Source: Arthrobacter sp. AFG7.2
GTDB taxonomy: Bacteria > Actinomycetota > Actinomycetes > Actinomycetales > Micrococcaceae
Reading direction: 5' to 3'
Assembly: GCF_002892835.1 (NCBI RefSeq)
Contig: NZ_PJMB01000002.1
Span: 496,001 to 560,000 of the forward strand
DNA length: 64,000 bases
Shown here in pieces: positions 55,296 through 64,000 of the stretch (position 1 is its first letter; each line of letters opens with the position of its first letter). Made by a program: the position numbers and the translations under genes. Under the pieces are notes generated by a model that was not told where the DNA came from, made no database searches, and saw only the letters and a program-made list of their open reading frames with translations.

Positions 55296-56483
55296 ATGAC
55301 TCTTTCCCCCACCCCCGCTGACAAGTTCACCTTTGGCCTCTGGACCGTCGGCTGGACCGGCGCCGATCCGTTCGGCGTCGCTACCCGCGCAGCACTGGAT
55401 CCCGTGGAGGCAGTCCACCGCCTCAGCGAACTCGGCGCCTACGGCATCACCTTCCACGACAATGACCTGGTTCCCTTCGATGCCACGGATTCGGAGCGGG
55501 AGCTGATCCTGAAGAACTTCAAGGCAGCCCTGGCCGAGACCGGCCTGAAGGTCCCCATGGTGACCACCAACCTGTTCAGCCATCCGGTATTCAAGGACGG
55601 CGGCTTCACCTCCAATGACCGCTCCATCCGCCGGTTCGCACTCAGCAAGGTCCTGCGCAACATCGATTCAGCCGCAGAGTTTGGCGCCGAGACGTTCGTG
55701 ATGTGGGGCGGGCGCGAAGGCAGCGAATACGACGGCTCCAAGGACCTCGCCGCGGCGCTGGACCGGATGAAGGAAGGCGTGGACACTGCCGCCGCGTACA
55801 TCAAGGACAAGGGCTACAACCTGCGCATCGCCCTGGAGCCCAAGCCCAACGAACCCCGCGGCGACATCTTCCTCCCCACCGTGGGCCACGGCCTCGCCTT
55901 CATCGCCGAGCTCGAACACGGCGACATCGTAGGACTGAACCCCGAAACCGGACACGAGCAGATGGCCGGGCTGAACTTCACCCACGGCATCGCCCAGGCG
56001 CTCTGGGCCGGCAAGCTGTTCCACATCGACCTCAACGGCCAGCGCGGCATCAAGTACGACCAGGACCTCGTCTTCGGCCACGGCGACCTCACCAGCGCAT
56101 TCTTCACCGTCGACCTGCTCGAGAACGGCTTCCCCAACGGCGGACCCCGCTACGAGGGACCCCGCCACTTCGACTACAAGCCCTCCCGCACCGACGGCTA
56201 CGACGGCGTCTGGGAATCAGCCAAGGCAAATATGGCCACCTACCTGCTGCTCAAGGAACGCGCACTGGCCTTCCGCGCCGACCCCGAGGTCCAGGAGGCA
56301 CTGGCCGCGTCCGGTGTTGGTGAACTCGGTGAACCAACCCTCAGCGCCGGCGAAACCACCGCCGACCTGCTTGCTGACACCAGCGCATTCGAGGACTTCG
56401 ACGCCGACAAGGCTGCCGAGCGCTCCTTCGCGTTCGTCCGCCTGAACCAGCTCGCCATCGAACACCTCCTCAACGCCCGCTAA
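55296..56483 (+). CDS. xylA: Xylose isomerase
   Basis: The 395-residue TIM-barrel enzyme converts xylose to xylulose (and glucose to fructose in related enzymes); it needs divalent metal. Typical segments are [22 protein letters not shown] (catalytic His), [23 protein letters not shown] (metal-binding Glu) and [10 protein letters not shown]. This is the shorter (class I, actinobacterial) form. AAGGA lies six bases before the ATG. It is divergent from xylR and followed by a strong hairpin before xylB. Confidence 0.97.
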
Positions 56484-56574: not shown

Positions 56575-57993
56575 ATGCCATTAGTTGCCGGAATCGACAG
56601 CTCCACCCAGTCCTGCAAGGTGGTGATCCGCGACGCGGACACCGGGAAGCTCATCCGCCAGGGCCGCGCTGCCCATCCCGAAGGCAGCGAAGTCCATCCG
56701 GACCACTGGTGGACAGCCCTGCAGGAAGCCATCGCCCAGGCAGGCGGACTGGACGACGTGGCAGCACTCTCCGTTGGCGGCCAGCAGCACGGCATGGTCT
56801 GCCTGGACAATGACGGCCAGGTCATTCGGCCTGCGCTGCTCTGGAACGACACCCGCAGTGCCGGTGCGGCTGCGGACCTGATCAAGGCAGCGGGCGACGG
56901 CGATGCTGCCGCCGGCGCCCGCTACTGGGCCCAGGCCACCGGCACTGTTCCGGTCGCTTCCCTGACGCTGACGAAGCTGCACTGGCTTGCCGGGAATGAG
57001 CCGGAGAACGCCGCCCGCGTTACAGCCGTGTGCCTCCCCCATGACTGGCTGACCTGGCGGCTCATGGGTTATGGCCCCGGGAGCGGCGAGGCGGGCCTGG
57101 CGGCCTTGAGGACCGACCGCTCGGACGCGTCGGGCACCGGCTACTTCTCCACGGCTTCAGGCCAATACCTGCCCGAGGTCCTGGAGTCATCGCTGGGCCA
57201 CGTTCCACTGCTTCCCGAGGTACTGGGCCCGCTGGACTCCGCCGGTAAGACACCCGCCGGCACCCTCCTGGCGGCGGGCGCCGGTGACAACGCGGCGGCC
57301 GGGCTGGGAGTGGGGGCAGGCCTGGGGGACGTGGTCATGTCCCTTGGGACGTCGGGAACGGTATTCGCCGTGTCAGCTGCCCCTGCTGCCGATTCCTCCG
57401 GCCTGGTGGCAGGATTTGCGGATGCCGCGGGGAATTTCCTGCCCCTGGTCTGCACGCTCAACGCCACCCGGGTCTTTGACGCCACAGCAGCGCTGCTGGA
57501 TGTCAGCCTGCAGGAGTTCAATGAGTTGGCCCTTGCAGCCTCGTCCGGTGCCGGGGGCCTGACCCTGGTTCCGTACTTCGACGGCGAGCGCACACCCAAC
57601 CTGCCGGATGCCACCGGATCCCTGCATGGCATCACGCGCGCCAACTACACGCCGGCAAACCTGGCGCGTGCCGCCGTCGAAGGCGTGGTCTGTTCCCTGG
57701 CAGACGGCCTGGCTGCCCTGCAGGCCCAGGGGGTTGAAGCCCGGCGAATCATCCTGGTGGGCGGAGGGGCACAATCAACTGCCGTCCAGGAGGTGGCGCC
57801 GCAACTGCTGGGCATTGACGTAGTGGTGCCCGGGCCGGGCGAGTATGTGGCCGACGGCGCTGCCCGGCAGGCCGCCGCGGCACTCACGGGACAATTTCCG
57901 GAGTGGCAGCTGGACGCCGTCGAACTTTCCGCACGGAAGGACGACGCCGGCGTGCTGGCACGCTACCGCAGCTTCGCCTCGCTGTACGCCTAA
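56575..57993 (+). CDS. xylB: Xylulokinase
   Basis: The 472-residue FGGY-family kinase phosphorylates xylulose, sending xylose into the pentose phosphate pathway. The N-terminal [15 protein letters not shown], the substrate-binding [12 protein letters not shown]-binding [10 protein letters not shown] and the C-terminal [19 protein letters not shown] are clear. AAGGAA lies about six bases before the ATG. It follows xylA by 91 bases with a strong terminator between and is closed by its own terminator. Confidence 0.96.
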
Positions 57994-58113: not shown

Positions 58114-58953
58114 TCAGGCGAACGGGAGAACAAGCTCCGCGTAGCGCTCCTTGACCGTGGCCAGGACGGTGTTGCCGTCCGTGTCCCAGATGTCCTGATT
58201 AAAGATCTCGACTTCGATGTCACCGGTGTAGCCGGCGTCGCGCACCCAGGTGCCGATGGTGGCGAAGTCCACCACGCCGTCGCCCATGTACCCGCGGGAC
58301 AGCAGCGGATCGGCGGCGATGGGCATGTTGAAATCGCACACCTGGTAGGAGGCGATCCGGTTCTCCCGGCCGGCACGTTCGATCTGTGCCTTCAACTCGG
58401 GATCCCACCAGACATGGAAGGTATCGACGGCGACCCCCACCGTGGAGGCGTCGAACGGCGCTGCCAGGTCCAGGGCCTGCCCCAGCGTGGAGATCAGGGC
58501 GCGGTCCGCTGCGTACATCGGGTGCAGCGGCTCCAGGACCAGGCGGACCCCGTTTTCCTCGGCAAACGGAACCAGGTCGGCAAGGCGGTCTGCGACCCGC
58601 TGGCGGGCGGCCACCACGTCCTTCTCCCCCGGGGCCAGCCCGCCGACCACCAGGAACAGGTCCCGGGTGTCCAGGGCGACGGCTTCCAGGATGGCTGCAC
58701 GGTTGTCCGCGAGAGCGGCTGCCTGGCCCTCCGCATCGGGGGCGGTGAGGAATCCGCCCCGGCACAGGGAGGACACTCGCAGGCCCGCGTCCTTGATCAG
58801 GCGGGCCGCCTTGTCCAGGCCGGCTTCCTCAACCCGGTCCCGCCAGGGACCAATGGCGGGGATGCCGGCGTTGACGCAGCCGTCAACAACCTGGGCAAGG
58901 GTCCACTTCTTGGTGGTGGCACTGTTGATGGACAGCCGGGCGAAGTCGCTCAT
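58114..58953 (-). CDS. Sugar phosphate isomerase/epimerase family protein (TIM barrel)
   Basis: The 279-residue xylose-isomerase-like TIM-barrel protein has the metal-site segments LVLEPLHPMY (Glu about 141), VGVAVDTFHVWWDP (Asp/His about 175-182) and DIEVEIFNQDIW (Glu about 248). Family members act as isomerases, epimerases, hydratases or, for some oxidised sugars, beta-eliminases. ATG 58953 overlaps the stop of the DUF993 gene by four bases, so it is the last gene of a coupled three-gene operon. Its place beside a Gfo/Idh dehydrogenase and a DHDPS-like barrel suggests a step in an oxidative sugar pathway. Confidence 0.85.
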   Translation of the reverse strand: MSDFARLSINSATTKKWTLAQVVDGCVNAGIPAIGPWRDRVEEAGLDKAARLIKDAGLRVSSLCRGGFLTAPDAEGQAAALADNRAAILEAVALDTRDLFLVVGGLAPGEKDVVAARQRVADRLADLVPFAEENGVRLVLEPLHPMYAADRALISTLGQALDLAAPFDASTVGVAVDTFHVWWDPELKAQIERAGRENRIASYQVCDFNMPIAADPLLSRGYMGDGVVDFATIGTWVRDAGYTGDIEVEIFNQDIWDTDGNTVLATVKERYAELVLPFA

Positions 58954-60164
58954 ACTCCCACCCCGTTGATGCGCAGGTAGTCAGACATTCGGAACGCGGC
59001 CAGCGCAGGATCCTTCAGCAGGCCTGCCTGGTCGGCCAGTTCGAAGGTCCTGGCCAGGTGGCATACCGAGCGGCCGGAGTGCAGGCCGCCGACCATCTGG
59101 AAGCCGGGCTGCTTGCCGTTGAGCCAGGACATGAACGCGATACCCGTTTTGTAGTAGAACGTGGGGGCGCTGAAGATGTGCTTGCCCAGCTCGCGGGTGG
59201 AGTCCAGGATTTCGCGGGCCTTGGCCGCATTGCCTGCGTCGTAGTTTTGCAGGGCTACCGAGGCGGCCGGGTAGATCGCCGCGAAGATGCCCAGCAGGGC
59301 ATCCGAGTGGTGCGTGCCGTCGCCGTCGATGAGTTCGGGGTAGTTGAAATCATCACCGGTGTAGAGGCGGACACCCTCAGGCAGCGCTGCCCGCAGGGCC
59401 ACCTCGTGGCTCGCGTCGAGCAGTGAGACCTTGACGCCGTCAACCTTGTCTGCGTTGTCCCGGATGAGGCCGAGGAACGTTTCCGTGGCGGCGGCGACGT
59501 CGTCAGAACCCCAGTAGCCGGCGAGGGCAGGGTCGAACATGGTGCCGAGCCAGTGCAGGATCACCGGCTGGTCCACTTCCTGCAGCAGGGTGGAGTAGAC
59601 GTTCAGGTAATCCTCGGGGCCGCTGGCCACCTTGGCCAGCGCGCGGGAGGCCATGAGGATGACCTTGGGTCCGGCTTCGCTGATGACGGCGATCTGCTCG
59701 CGGTAAGCCTCCAGGACAGCCTTGATGCCTGCTTCGCCCACGGGCAGGGAGTCAATATCCAACTGGTCGGTGCCGGCTCCGCAGGAGACGAGGTCCCGGA
59801 CGGACTTCCCTGCCGTGGCCGCGTTTCCTGCGGCAACCACGGAGGCTGCTTCGACGCCGGTCCGCTTGATGAGCTGCTGGGTTGCGGCCCAGTCCAGGCC
59901 CATACCGCGCTGGGCGGTGTCCATGGCGTCTGCGACGCCGAGGCCGTAGGACCACAGTTCATGGCGGTAGGCCATGGTGGCGTCCCAGTCCAGCCGGGCA
60001 GGAGCGCCGGGGGTGTTGTCCGCCAGGACTTCGGGGATGACATGTGCTGCGGCATAAGCGCGCCGGGCGGTGAGCGGAGCCGTGGGGCGTGCCCAGGTGG
60101 TGCCGCCCTGCAGGCGGTACTCGCGGGTGCCGCCGTCGTTGGAGGGGAGGATGAGAGAGGTCAT
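58950..60164 (-). CDS. DUF993 / dihydrodipicolinate-synthase-like TIM-barrel protein
   Basis: The 404-residue protein belongs to the DUF993 family, whose fold resembles DapA-type class I aldolases. Segments such as CGAGTDQLD, PVILHWLGTMFDP and TGDDFNYPELIDGDGTHHSDALLGIFAAIYP are conserved in the family. I cannot identify with certainty a Schiff-base Lys, although VDGVKVSLLD is a reasonable candidate position (KVSLLD, near residue 244). Its start ATG shares one base with the TAA of the upstream oxidoreductase gene (TAATG), and its end overlaps the next gene. It probably cleaves or hydrates a keto-sugar acid; this is inference. Confidence 0.82.
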   Translation of the reverse strand: MTSLILPSNDGGTREYRLQGGTTWARPTAPLTARRAYAAAHVIPEVLADNTPGAPARLDWDATMAYRHELWSYGLGVADAMDTAQRGMGLDWAATQQLIKRTGVEAASVVAAGNAATAGKSVRDLVSCGAGTDQLDIDSLPVGEAGIKAVLEAYREQIAVISEAGPKVILMASRALAKVASGPEDYLNVYSTLLQEVDQPVILHWLGTMFDPALAGYWGSDDVAAATETFLGLIRDNADKVDGVKVSLLDASHEVALRAALPEGVRLYTGDDFNYPELIDGDGTHHSDALLGIFAAIYPAASVALQNYDAGNAAKAREILDSTRELGKHIFSAPTFYYKTGIAFMSWLNGKQPGFQMVGGLHSGRSVCHLARTFELADQAGLLKDPALAAFRMSDYLRINGVGV

Positions 60165-61333
60165 TAGAGGGTGATCTCCGGGATGTCGAGGGTGCGGCGT
60201 TCGTCGTTGGACTTCAGGCCGAGCTCAGCGAGCTGGACGCCGCGGGCGGCGGACAGCAGGCCGAAGCGGTGTTCCCGACCGGCGACGACGTCGCGGAGGA
60301 ATTCTTCCCACTGCAGCTTGAAGCCGTTGTCCAGTTCGGCGTTGGCGGGGACTTCCTGCCACTGGTCGCGGAAGGATTCGGTGACGGGCAGGTCCGGGTT
60401 CCAGACGGGCTTGGGGGTGTGGGCGCGCTGCTGGGCAACGCACTTGTTCAGGCCGGCGACGGCGGAACCGTGGGTACCGTCCACCTGGAACTCAACCAGT
60501 TCGTCGCGGTAGACGCGGACGGCCCAGGAGGAGTTGATCTGGCCAATGACTTCGTCGCCAGCGGGTGTTTCGAGTTCGAAGATGCCGTAGGACGCGTCAT
60601 CCGCCGTGGCTTTGTATTCCTTGCCTGCCTCATCCCAGCGGGCAGGGATATGGGTGGCGGTCTTGGCGTTGACGCTCTTGACCTTGCCGATGATGCCTTC
60701 GAGGACGTAGTTCCAGTGGCAGAACATGTCCGTGGTCATTCCACCGCCGTCTTCCTTGCGGTAGTTCCAGGACGGGCGCTGGGCTGCCTGTATGTCGCCT
60801 TCAAAGACCCAGTAGCCGAACTCACCCCGGATGGAGAGGATGCGGCCGAAGAAGCCTTCGTCCACCAGCCGGCGGAGCTTGACCAGGCCCGGGAGGTACA
60901 GCTTGTCGTGGACAACGCCCGCTGTGACTCCGGATTCCTTGCCGATGCGGGCCAGCTCGATGGCTTCCTCCAGCGTCTCGGCAGTGGGCTTTTCAGTGAA
61001 GATGTGCTTGCCGGCGAGCATTGCCTTCTTGAGGGTGGCTGCGCGGAGGCTGGTCATGGATGCGTCAAAAATGATGTCGACTGTGGGGTCGTTGATGACC
61101 GAATCCAGGTCAGTGGTCCACTCCGCTACCTTGTGCTTTTCGGCAAGTTCGCGGATCTTTGCTTCGTTGCGGCCCACCAGGATGGGTTCAACCTGGACGC
61201 GCGTGCCGTCTTCCAGGGTGAATCCGCCGGCATCCCGGATGGGAAGGATGGAGCGCAGCAGGTGCTGGCGGTAGCCCATCCGGCCGGTGATGCCGTTCAT
61301 GGCGATGCGGATGGTTTTAGTTTCGAAGCCCAT
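60164..61333 (-). CDS. Gfo/Idh/MocA-family NAD(P)-dependent sugar oxidoreductase
   Basis: The 389-residue dehydrogenase has a Rossmann N-terminal domain with an unusual cofactor loop MNGITGRMGYRQH (about residues 12-24), closer to the GxxGRMG of DapB than to the family's GxGxxG, and the family's catalytic Lys in the EKP motif (TEKPTAETL, about 112-120). The C-terminal domain carries GEFGYWVFEGD and YRKEDGGGMTTDMFCHW, a family-typical substrate cleft. It is the first gene of the operon with the DUF993 and isomerase-like genes, and lies divergent from a LacI regulator. The substrate is unknown, probably a sugar or inositol-like polyol. Confidence 0.87.
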   Translation of the reverse strand: MGFETKTIRIAMNGITGRMGYRQHLLRSILPIRDAGGFTLEDGTRVQVEPILVGRNEAKIRELAEKHKVAEWTTDLDSVINDPTVDIIFDASMTSLRAATLKKAMLAGKHIFTEKPTAETLEEAIELARIGKESGVTAGVVHDKLYLPGLVKLRRLVDEGFFGRILSIRGEFGYWVFEGDIQAAQRPSWNYRKEDGGGMTTDMFCHWNYVLEGIIGKVKSVNAKTATHIPARWDEAGKEYKATADDASYGIFELETPAGDEVIGQINSSWAVRVYRDELVEFQVDGTHGSAVAGLNKCVAQQRAHTPKPVWNPDLPVTESFRDQWQEVPANAELDNGFKLQWEEFLRDVVAGREHRFGLLSAARGVQLAELGLKSNDERRTLDIPEITL

Positions 61334-61374: not shown

Positions 61375-61438
61375 GGGAAAGCGCATTCCCACTACGTCAA
61401 TAATGCACTGCCGCATTCACAGTTGGCAAGCGCTTTCC
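61375..61438. promoter_or_regulatory. Two LacI-family operators in the divergent promoter region
   Basis: Two palindromes lie between the oxidoreductase and lacI genes: GGGAAAGCGCATTCCC (61375-61390) and GGCAAGCGCTTTCC (61425-61438). The core AAGCGCTT/AAGCGCAT with GG and CC flanks is the classic LacI/GalR operator form. Their centres are about 49 bases apart, so looping or control of both directions is possible. The regulator encoded next door is the natural candidate. Confidence 0.75.
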
Positions 61439-61505: not shown

Positions 61506-62594
61506 GTGGCTGCAAGTACCCTTACCGAGGTGGCCCGGCTGGCCGGAGTCTCCCCCGCCACCGCCTCCCGGGTGTTGAACGGCTCGGCGCGCAAGCCCGG
61601 CAAGGACATCGCGGAAAGGGTGCGCCAGGCTGCGGATTCCCTGGGCTACATCCCCAACGCCCAGGCCCAGGGGCTGGCCAAATCGAGTTCAGGCCTGATC
61701 GGCCTGATCGTCCATGACATCGCAGACCCGTACTTCGCAGCAATAGCCCGCGGCGTCCAGGACGAAGCCAGGGAGCAGCGCCGGATGGTACTGCTGGCTA
61801 CCACGGGCGGAGCTCCGGCGGAAGAACGCGAAGCCGTGGCCGCTTTCGCCGCCCGGCGCGCTGATTCGATCGTCATCGCAGGTTCCCGCTCGTCCCGGAC
61901 GGAAGACCGGGACGACAACGCTGAACTGGCGGCTGAGCTCGACCGGTACTGCCGCAATGGCGGGCAGGTGGCCGTGGTTGGGCACCCGGTGGTCGGTGCC
62001 ACAGTTACTGAGGGGTATCACGTGGTGGCGGTGCCCAACCAGGAGCTCGCAGGTGCCCTGGCAGCTGAACTCGCATCCCGCTGGGATGGCGACTTCGTCA
62101 TTATCGGCGGCCCTGACGGTCTCTTCACCTCTGACGACCGGATTCGCGGCTTCCAGGAAGGCCTCGCCACCGCCGGCCGTCCACCTGCCGAGGTCCTGCG
62201 CACCGCGTTCAACCGCTCCGGCGGTTACGATGCCGGACTCGAGCTGGCGGCCAGGATCAAGGCCGGGAGGTCAGGGGACGGGGAAGCCTCCGCCCGGAAA
62301 CTATGCATCTTCGCAGTCAATGACGTCATGGCCATTGGAGCATCGGCTGCTTTGCGGGCGGAGGGGCTTCGGATTCCCCGGGACGCCACAATTGCCGGAT
62401 TTGACGATATCGAGACACTGCGGGACTTCCGCCCCGCACTCTCCACCGTCCGCCTGCCGCTCGAGGAGATCGGACGACTTGCCACCCGGGCCACGGGCCG
62501 CACGGCCGGTGGCAGCGAGGACCTGGATGACGGGGAGCCCGGGCCGGTGAGCGGTGAGGTGACGCTTCGGCGCAGCACCGAGGCGGTGGCATGA
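61506..62594 (+). CDS. LacI-family transcriptional regulator
   Basis: The 362-residue repressor has the N-terminal helix-turn-helix LTEVARLAGVSPATASRVLNG (about residues 5-26), the hinge helix with AQGLAKSSS, and a periplasmic-binding-protein-like effector domain (about 60-345). GTG 61506 is the start, with CCAGGAG a few bases upstream. It would respond to a sugar and control the divergent operon and itself through the two palindromes upstream. The esterase gene starts inside its stop codon (ATGA), giving translational coupling. Confidence 0.92.
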   Translation: MAASTLTEVARLAGVSPATASRVLNGSARKPGKDIAERVRQAADSLGYIPNAQAQGLAKSSSGLIGLIVHDIADPYFAAIARGVQDEAREQRRMVLLATTGGAPAEEREAVAAFAARRADSIVIAGSRSSRTEDRDDNAELAAELDRYCRNGGQVAVVGHPVVGATVTEGYHVVAVPNQELAGALAAELASRWDGDFVIIGGPDGLFTSDDRIRGFQEGLATAGRPPAEVLRTAFNRSGGYDAGLELAARIKAGRSGDGEASARKLCIFAVNDVMAIGASAALRAEGLRIPRDATIAGFDDIETLRDFRPALSTVRLPLEEIGRLATRATGRTAGGSEDLDDGEPGPVSGEVTLRRSTEAVA

Positions 62595-63370
62595 GCATGG
62601 CGGCCGCACTGACCAGCATCCCTGCACACCAGGCTGCTACCGGGGCCGATGCCGGCAACCCAAGGCCTGCCGTCCTGGTGCTGCCTGGCGGTGGCTATGC
62701 CCGCCAGGCAGACCACGAAGCGGAGCCGGTGGCAGAGTGGCTCGCCGCACTGGGCATCCACGCCTTCGTCCTGCGGTACAGCGTGGCGCCGGACAGGCAT
62801 CCGGCGCCGCTGGTGGCCGCCAAGGAAGCCATGCTGCATATCCGCAGCGGATCCCATGGCCTCGGGGTGGACCCGGGCCGCGTGGGTGTCCTCGGGTTTT
62901 CCGCCGGCGGACACCTTGCCGCCACGCTCTCAACGGCCAGGGCAACGGGCAACGCGGACCTCGATGTTCCGGCGGCGGTACCGGACCTGACGGTACTGTG
63001 CTACCCGGTGGTGTCCTACACGCAGTCCGTGCATCAGGGTTCGGTGGACAACCTCCTCGGCCACGCGCCGTCGTCGGACCTCCTTGCCGAGCTCTCTGCA
63101 GAGCAGCATGTGACGGCGGCGACCCCTCCCGCGTTCGTCTGGCACACCGCTGACGACCCTGCCGTGCCGGTCAGCCACAGCCTGGGCTACGCGGGCGCGC
63201 TCATGGATGCCGGTGTTCCTGCCGAGCTGCATGTCTTTCCCCATGGCCGCCACGGCCTTGGCCTTGCCTCGGAAGAGCGGGGGCCGGACCGCTGGACCGA
63301 CCTGTGCGCCGGCTGGCTGGACCGCGCCGGCTGGGCCTCCCGCCCCTCCACAGAGGAAAGCCGGAACTAG
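62591..63370 (+). CDS. Alpha/beta-hydrolase, acetyl-xylan/carbohydrate esterase-like
   Basis: The 259-residue hydrolase has the oxyanion motif PGGGYARQ (about 33-40), nucleophile elbow GFSAGGHLAATLS (Ser about 103), an Asp in HTADDPAVP and the catalytic His in FPHGRHGLGL. It resembles BD-FAE/acetyl-esterase-like proteins that deacetylate sugars or oligosaccharides, and has no signal peptide, so it acts inside the cell. Coupled to the LacI gene by ATGA, it probably removes acyl groups from an imported sugar. The 3' end overlaps the convergent epimerase gene by four bases. Confidence 0.85.
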   Translation: MSMAAALTSIPAHQAATGADAGNPRPAVLVLPGGGYARQADHEAEPVAEWLAALGIHAFVLRYSVAPDRHPAPLVAAKEAMLHIRSGSHGLGVDPGRVGVLGFSAGGHLAATLSTARATGNADLDVPAAVPDLTVLCYPVVSYTQSVHQGSVDNLLGHAPSSDLLAELSAEQHVTAATPPAFVWHTADDPAVPVSHSLGYAGALMDAGVPAELHVFPHGRHGLGLASEERGPDRWTDLCAGWLDRAGWASRPSTEESRN

Positions 63371-64000
63371 GGTAAAGCGCGGATGGTCCAGGCCGCGGAG
63401 TGCGACTCCCCCGGTTCAAGGTGGATGAGGTCCGTCCCGGAGTTGAAGGCATCCGGCGGGCACGTCATGGGTTCGACGGCCATTCCAAGACGGTCGGGGC
63501 CCACCGGCTTGTCACCTGTATGGATCTGGACCCATGGCCACTCGGCACCCCATTCCAGTTCAACACCCGTGCCGGCAGGATCCTGAACGCGGACCCGGGC
63601 CAGCCCTAGGTCGTCACGGGAAAGTTCAGTGAAGGCGTGGTCGATCTTCAGGGAACCGACCCGGCGGGGGCGGCGGAAATCGAAGTCGTGCCCCTCCACA
63701 CTTTTCATTGCCACCGGGAGCAGCCGGTCCGGCGTCACCTCCAGGAACTCCCGGGCCGGCACTTCCAGCGTCCACTCATCCAGCCCTGCGGGCCCGGCCA
63801 CCAGGTAGGGATGCGGACACACGCCGTAAGGGGCAGTGGCAGGCCCGATGTTTTCAGCGGTGACCGTGCTGTGCAGCCCGTCCGCGTCCAGGGAGTATGA
63901 GACGGAGACCTGCAGATCGGAGGGATAGTTCACGCCTGCCTTGACCCTGCAGGCGAGGACCACACAGTCTTCGGCTGCCTCCCGCACGTCCCAGACCTGT
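63367..64000 (-). CDS. Aldose 1-epimerase, partial (5' end beyond window)
   Basis: The C-terminal 211 residues of a galactose-mutarotase-type enzyme are present. Recognised parts are GVCPHPYLVAG (the family's catalytic His-Pro segment), WPWVQIHTGDK (catalytic Glu region further on) and the VEPMTCPPDAFNSG motif. The N-terminal third, with its start, lies outside the window; the frame is open to the last base. It shares its stop region with the esterase gene (four-base overlap) and would interconvert sugar anomers in the same sugar pathway. Confidence 0.88.
   Translation of the reverse strand, partial: QVWDVREAAEDCVVLACRVKAGVNYPSDLQVSVSYSLDADGLHSTVTAENIGPATAPYGVCPHPYLVAGPAGLDEWTLEVPAREFLEVTPDRLLPVAMKSVEGHDFDFRRPRRVGSLKIDHAFTELSRDDLGLARVRVQDPAGTGVELEWGAEWPWVQIHTGDKPVGPDRLGMAVEPMTCPPDAFNSGTDLIHLEPGESHSAAWTIRALP

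Follow-up and report, generated by a model that had tools for sequence, protein, structure and literature searches.

The window, meaning the whole 64,000-nucleotide stretch of the Arthrobacter sp. AFG7.2 genome analyzed here, carries on its minus strand three overlapping genes for a dehydrogenase, a DUF993 protein and an isomerase-like barrel protein (hereafter, the trio), facing a divergent LacI-family regulator gene across an intergenic region that contains two palindromes. An earlier note on this DNA had described the overlapping arrangement, and the minus-strand open reading frames together with the TAATG and ATGA junctions bear it out: the stop codon of the dehydrogenase gene and the start codon of the DUF993 gene have one base in common, and the DUF993 and barrel genes meet in an ATGA overlap. 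The operon and its control region consist of the following elements.

60164-61333, minus strand: Gfo/Idh/MocA-family dehydrogenase, operon gene 1, 389 aa, Pfam GFO_IDH_MocA domains
58950-60164, minus strand: DUF993 protein, operon gene 2, 404 aa, PF06187 (E 3.8e-179)
58114-58953, minus strand: isomerase/epimerase-like TIM barrel, operon gene 3, 279 aa, AP_endonuc_2 (E 1.8e-32)
61506-62594, plus strand: LacI-family regulator, divergent from the operon, Pfam LacI and Peripla_BP_3
61376-61389, no strand: LacI-type operator 1, GGAAAGCGCATTCC, kept upstream of the dehydrogenase gene
61425-61438, no strand: LacI-type operator 2, GGCAAGCGCTTTCC, of which an identical 14-mer precedes a glycerate kinase gene

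The trio is a real, widely conserved catabolic operon. We compared 98 loci, made up of the best 80 of at least 595 DUF993 genome contigs plus 18 plasmid regions (15 plasmid-organism labels, hand-picked from 40 spread-out candidates among the 147 matching plasmid records); the sample leans to close relatives, and proteobacterial diversity is thin in it because the plasmid regions are few and hand-picked. Genes were called with a codon-scored caller in 93 of the 98 loci, the other five being added later, and neighbors are labeled by BLAST to annotated examples unless a family match is named. In 79 of the 93 gene-called loci the three genes are contiguous, on the same strand and in the same order, which supports the co-transcription proposed in the earlier note. 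Among these 79, 49 have a 4-nt and 14 a 1-nt overlap at the first junction; at the second, 62 have the 4-nt and 3 the 1-nt form. In 59 both junctions are overlaps of one or the other length, so the arrangement is more than chance. Orthologues of the dehydrogenase and of the barrel protein were each found in 80 of the first 83 loci (80 contigs and three plasmid regions); with looser thresholds, a Gfo relative lies within 9.5 kb of DUF993 in 88 of the 98 loci and an isomerase relative in 92, so DUF993 does not mostly occur without these partners, a possibility that the note had raised. At least 7,998 DUF993 relatives were scored in a protein search. The gene is single copy in its own genome and patchy in distribution: of 198 genomes sampled across the phylum 15 have it, and of 41 sampled within the genus, 31 do.

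Several clusters depart from this pattern. The barrel gene is missing in some loci (L002, L094); the first of these, on the Arthrobacter conjugative plasmid pNtRootA2-2, combines GMC oxidoreductase, aldehyde dehydrogenase, Gfo and DUF993 genes near an IS30 transposase and an integrase, and similar stretches are carried by L160 and L161. On a Streptomyces plasmid, a divergent DUF993 relative (L090:8884-10071) adjoins a type I polyketide synthase gene. Alphaproteobacterial clusters encode a divergent enolase-like protein (L086:6279-7667, L089:6311-7708, L101, L102), whose gene separates DUF993 from the barrel gene in L101 and L102; it has no Pfam match at 1e-6 and weak enolase-superfamily matches only.

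The LacI gene and the conserved palindromic operators have the makings of a LacI-controlled regulon. Of the 77 actinobacterial loci whose upstream sequence is long enough, 36 have an exact match to the operator pattern GGAAWGCGCWTTCC in the 250 bp before the dehydrogenase gene (46 if one mismatch is allowed), a density of 1.80 per kb, vs 0.007 per kb in the rest of these loci. The whole genome (4.05 Mb) contains six sites with at most one mismatch, and a reversed control pattern finds none; two of the six precede the operon, one precedes a glycerate kinase gene and one a PcRGLX-type gene. Operator-like sites of this genome also lie between transketolase and ctaB (C4:94369-94382, L113) and near a CAAX-protease gene (C17:93799-93812, L112), and L149 has one beside a GH26 gene.

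The glycerate kinase site has the sequence of operator 2, and 14 nt separate its end from the start codon of the kinase gene (PF02595, E 6e-120) on another contig. For tallies of glycerate kinase, PcRGLX and DUF993 we used 41 genomes drawn evenly from the genus, all of which encode glycerate kinase. They hold 55 exact copies of the operator 2 14-mer: 29 lie upstream of DUF993 operons, 20 precede a glycerate kinase match by 30-32 bp, four are beside a DUF6807/GDSL/transporter/rhamnosidase cluster (L151, L152, L153, L158), one before a LacI relative (L162) and one without such a gene nearby. A glycerate kinase gene with the exact site occurs in 20 of the 31 DUF993-positive and in none of the 10 DUF993-negative genomes, and a kinase-free route, as the earlier note had it, is not supported. 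In 13 of the 98 loci, spread over nine genera, glycerate kinase is also encoded no more than 9.5 kb from DUF993. Judging from the common 14-mer, we infer that this LacI protein would bind at both the operon and the glycerate kinase sites. One same-genus genome that lacks DUF993 retains a gene for a close relative of the window's LacI (L162:4856-5950), preceded by an operator at 83 bp and flanked by genes whose counterparts in the window stand beyond the xylose genes described below; the trio and the xylose genes look to have been lost, or never gained, there.

The three proteins have recognizable catalytic features. The dehydrogenase has the Rossmann domain, the C-terminal domain and the K...D...H catalytic set of Gfo/Idh/MocA proteins, with E114-K115-P116, D202 and H206 invariant in 22 homologues. 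The GxxGRMG-type loop pointed out before is genuine: in the same homologues M19 and G20 never vary, and G14, T16, G17 and R18 reach 90%. The closest PDB chain to the dehydrogenase is 3oqb, an oxidoreductase without assigned function (E 1.2e-138), and every NCBIfam equivalog match falls far under its cut-off. The dehydrogenase of the earlier note is thus borne out in that its catalytic residues are present; it may work in either the oxidizing or the reducing direction. In one Streptomyces (L066:7383-8491) the dehydrogenase gene is in two adjacent pieces and an extra gene stands before DUF993.

The barrel protein matches AP_endonuc_2 at 113 bits (cut-off 31). Across 25 homologues E141, D177 and E249 are invariant and position 204 is Q in 16 and H in 9; E141, D177, Q204 and E249 form a putative metal site at the metal-ligand positions of IolI, consistent with the isomerase-type family to which the third gene had been assigned. 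A second AP_endonuc_2 protein, absent from the window, is encoded near the LacI gene in Arthrobacter relatives (L005-L008, L010-L012) and in L159 (6141-6914), where a one-mismatch operator ends 15 bp before its gene.

The DUF993 protein matches PF06187 over residues 5-402 (596 bits, cut-off 24), the only profile found at E ≤0.001; the PF00701 profile gave no match. Its predicted structure (pLDDT 94.2) is a DHDPS-type beta/alpha barrel that resembles 4dnh and DHDPS folds, supporting the DapA-like fold claimed in the earlier note, and the Schiff-base lysine that the note had suggested looking for was found in the model as K245, at the end of strand 241-247 (strand 6), aligned with the reference lysine. 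K245, H204, W205, D82, T83 and R86 are invariant in 38 homologues. The 4dnh structure is itself that of a DUF993 member, SMc04132 of Sinorhizobium meliloti, in the PDB since 2012 under the title "hypothetical protein." A literature search with family, domain, structure and locus-tag names found no function for DUF993; in the portion of PMC12542648 covered, an expression table is the one place that lists SMc04132 and SMc04133.

The surroundings of the trio in other genomes bear on the nature of the substrate. An NMT1/SaoP-TauC-type ABC transporter adjoins it, and in Nocardia (L027) an exact operator precedes the gene for its permease. Metabolite/H+ symporters whose closest match is the shikimate transporter carry operators in L015 and L038, and tripartite tricarboxylate transporters are found near it in L089 and L091; sugar-type ABC systems also adjoin it in some loci. 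Genes resembling those for 5-dehydro-4-deoxyglucarate dehydratase (KdgD) and galactarate dehydratase follow the trio in four Nocardiopsis loci, and L039 has a dihydroxyacetone kinase gene. Together, the acid transporters, the sugar-acid dehydratases, glycerate kinase and dihydroxyacetone kinase favor an acidic C6 substrate that would be cut into C3 pieces, and an acid-sugar route ending in glycerate kinase is most likely. The idea of a xylan-derived 4-O-methylglucuronate was tried and set aside, as no alpha-glucuronidase (GH67/GH115) was present in ten large neighbor proteins scanned.

Further operator sites point to pectin as the possible origin of this acid. In the genome of the window, AGAAAGCGCTTTCC, a one-mismatch relative of the operon 14-mer, ends 52 nt before a PcRGLX-type gene (885 aa, PF21346 E 9.8e-190), and a relative of PL11 rhamnogalacturonan lyase (L114), with 86% identity to the Pfam-confirmed L145 protein, is encoded 1.3 kb past it. 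The same-genus set holds 19 exact AGAAAGCGCTTTCC sites; such a site stands at that distance before PcRGLX in 9 of the 18 genomes with PcRGLX, and three further ones precede PL11 relatives (L145, L146, L147). PcRGLX itself is present in 18 of the 31 DUF993-positive vs none of the 10 DUF993-negative genomes. In Nesterenkonia (L018), genes for a PL11 relative and a GDSL protein lie 6-10 kb from the trio, with DUF2264 and DUF6807 genes within 10 kb. Operators that are the same or differ at one position are found near lyase, rhamnosidase and transporter genes, and another LacI protein could bind the variants; the link to pectin is suggestive, and a second LacI protein with a similar motif could account for it. 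A search for the KduI family in the genus gave matches in 37 of the 41 genomes, and the PF04962 match of the window's own genome looks IolB-like by eye, so it is silent on an unsaturated-uronate route.

We propose, tentatively and at somewhat less than an even chance, that the trio breaks an acidic hexose-type sugar, probably set free from rhamnogalacturonan I of the pectin backbone, into C3 units and glycerate, with glycerate kinase co-regulated by the LacI protein. As substrate we envisage a hexuronate or one of its keto derivatives; the barrel isomerase and the dehydrogenase would isomerize, and oxidize or reduce, the acid sugar, and DUF993 would cleave it into C3 units through a Schiff base on Lys245. 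Of these units, we expect one to be tartronate semialdehyde or a related compound and to be converted to glycerate; glycerate kinase, a predicted target of the operon's own LacI repressor, would then bring the glycerate into metabolism. In a worked version, galacturonate would be isomerized to tagaturonate, DUF993 would split tagaturonate into dihydroxyacetone and tartronate semialdehyde, and the dehydrogenase would reduce the latter to glycerate for the kinase. Substrate, step order and dehydrogenase direction are what we infer here. The sequence given in the earlier note, in which the sugar is oxidized, rearranged or subjected to elimination, and then cleaved, is one possible order; of that interpretation as a whole, the chemistry is supported in part, while the claim that no kinase is involved is not. 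Rather doubtful, in our view, is a bolder reading in which DUF993 is a Schiff-base aldolase of a new type, having His204 where DapA has its tyrosine and lacking the pyruvate-carboxylate loop. It would split a pectin-derived keto-uronate directly into two C3 units and so define a retro-aldol uronate pathway to glycerate, distinct from the known isomerase, oxidative and reductive uronate routes.

A number of observations weigh against the acid-sugar proposal. The catalytic tyrosine and the GTTGE carboxylate loop of DapA are not kept in DUF993, so pyruvate-type chemistry is not expected; the profile-profile match between DUF993 and DapA-type proteins is weak (probability 18%, E 0.0013), and it is from the fold and the lysine only that DUF993 may be taken for an aldolase and aldol cleavage for its reaction. 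On the regulatory side, the window alone contains two operator matches with up to two mismatches vs 0.92 expected, and 22 of 100 shuffles reach two; this count is unremarkable, so the weight rests on conservation and on the genome-wide control. The operator was sought in 11 non-actinobacterial loci and found in none, and the exact glycerate kinase site is absent from 11 of the 31 DUF993-positive genomes. Fisher values of 0.0005 and 0.002 overstate independence because the 41 genomes are related. For pectin, only 9 of the 18 PcRGLX genes have the exact AGAAAGCGCTTTCC, one AGAAAGCGCTTTCC site (L155) lies beside an unrelated LacI gene and a KdgD-type cluster, two sites precede no gene of the pectin set, and 4 of the 19 fall outside the assignment, one of them in a DUF993-negative genome. 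Finally, rhizobial plasmids (L085, L087, L092, L103) have acyl-CoA-dehydrogenase-like, SDR and ETF genes instead of Gfo, and L087 and L092 add CoA-transferase and enoyl-CoA hydratase genes to the DUF993/barrel cluster. A plain sugar-acid route does not explain these loci, and our proposal leaves the rhizobial, polyketide-cluster and barrel-less DUF993 loci unexplained.

In an alternative that we consider unlikely yet deserving of attention, the trio is tied to glycerate kinase, the rhamnogalacturonan genes are under another LacI protein with a similar motif, and the substrate is an unrelated organic acid. A LacI-type RhaR regulon of rhamnose genes has been reported in Actinomycetales (PMC3870299, consulted in part), and the PcRGLX and PL11 sites are variants of the 14-mer, one of them being the L155 site next to a different LacI gene and a KdgD-type cluster; however, the exact 14-mer also occurs by DUF624/SBP/permease, DUF6807 and rhamnosidase clusters (L151, L153, L158), PcRGLX is confined to DUF993-positive genomes in the sample, and Nesterenkonia encodes a PL11 relative in the vicinity of the trio. 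We regard as distinctly unlikely a kinase-free route in which a neutral or acetylated sugar or glycoside undergoes 3-keto-type oxidation, the barrel protein carries out elimination or hydration, and DUF993 cleaves the product. The best NCBIfam model of the dehydrogenase is levoglucosan dehydrogenase and its best named PDB relative is 6a3f, and a levoglucosan pathway by oxidation, elimination, hydration and reduction exists (PMC7676230, abstract), but the score of 77.2 bits is far under the 650-bit equivalog cut-off, the operator is in common with glycerate kinase, and transporter types usual for carboxylates and sugar-acid dehydratases stand by the trio in several lineages, which weakens the neutral or acetylated sugar of the earlier note.

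A cyclitol (inositol-like) pathway, in which the dehydrogenase would form an inosose, the IolI-like barrel would isomerize it and DUF993 would open or cleave the product, finds its basis in the relatives of two of the proteins: IolI is the closest named PDB enzyme of the barrel protein by profile (E 3.9e-22), and scyllo-inositol dehydrogenases and IolG are among those of the dehydrogenase. We regard it as highly unlikely, since all such matches are far under equivalog cut-offs (for the barrel protein, IolO 34.9/300 and hydroxypyruvate isomerase 19.4/353 bits), and the regulon joins the trio to glycerate kinase and polysaccharide genes, not to inositol genes; the PF04962 match of this genome looks IolB-like by eye. 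The chance that the trio is an accessory of xylose or acetyl-xylan use, suggested by its neighbors in the window, we put as very small. These neighbors include the LacI, esterase and aldose epimerase genes noted earlier, all present by Pfam, and two xylose genes that the earlier note lacked.

62591-63370, plus strand: alpha/beta hydrolase, esterase-like, Pfam BD-FAE/Abhydrolase_3
63367-63999, minus strand: aldose 1-epimerase (Pfam), truncated by the window end, membership uncertain
55296-56483, plus strand: xylose isomerase XylA, probably outside the operon, NCBIfam TIGR02631 above cut-off
56575-57993, plus strand: xylulokinase XylB, probably outside the operon, NCBIfam TIGR01312 above cut-off

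The LacI and esterase-like genes meet in an ATGA overlap, and xylB ends 120 bp from the barrel gene in convergent orientation. Near DUF993, xylA is found in 11, xylB in 10 and an esterase relative in 10 of the 98 loci, but the xylA neighbors fall under four genus labels only, with order and orientation shuffled; aldose 1-epimerase is near DUF993 in 7 of the 98, under a single genus label. The esterase-like protein resembles acetylxylan esterase AxeA1 (133.9 bits, cut-off 700), but scores slightly higher with its top NCBIfam model, pectin acetylesterase PaeX (147.7 bits, under the 550-bit cut-off).

Returning to the proposed acid-sugar route, a 14-base motif that connects the operon with glycerate kinase and, with less certainty, with pectin genes narrows the open sugar question to a short list of acids. 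If the proposal is true, soil actinobacteria and rhizobia would have a further uronate route, and the DapA fold a new version of its active site.

Compared with DapA and DHDPS, DUF993 is about 400 aa long, its His204 aligns with a tyrosine present in six of seven references, and its MDTAQRG segment aligns with the GTTGE loop in two of three alignment modes. The barrel protein has the fold and the ligand positions (E, D, H or Q, E) in common with IolI inosose isomerase and hydroxypyruvate-isomerase-like barrels, but differs in that it reaches no equivalog cut-off, its likeness to IolI coming via the PDB relative alone. The levoglucosan dehydrogenase pathway likewise has a Gfo/Idh dehydrogenase adjoining an AP_endonuc_2 barrel protein, but the dehydrogenase is far under the equivalog cut-off, and the opening of that paper's abstract mentions neither DUF993 nor glycerate kinase.

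In D-glucarate/galactarate catabolism, 5-keto-4-deoxyglucarate is split into pyruvate and tartronate semialdehyde, and glycerate kinase follows; GarL, the aldolase known from that route, belongs to class II and has a different fold. The likeness lies in the glycerate kinase end and in the KdgD- and galactarate-dehydratase-like genes by the trio in Nocardiopsis, and the difference in the trio, which is additional.

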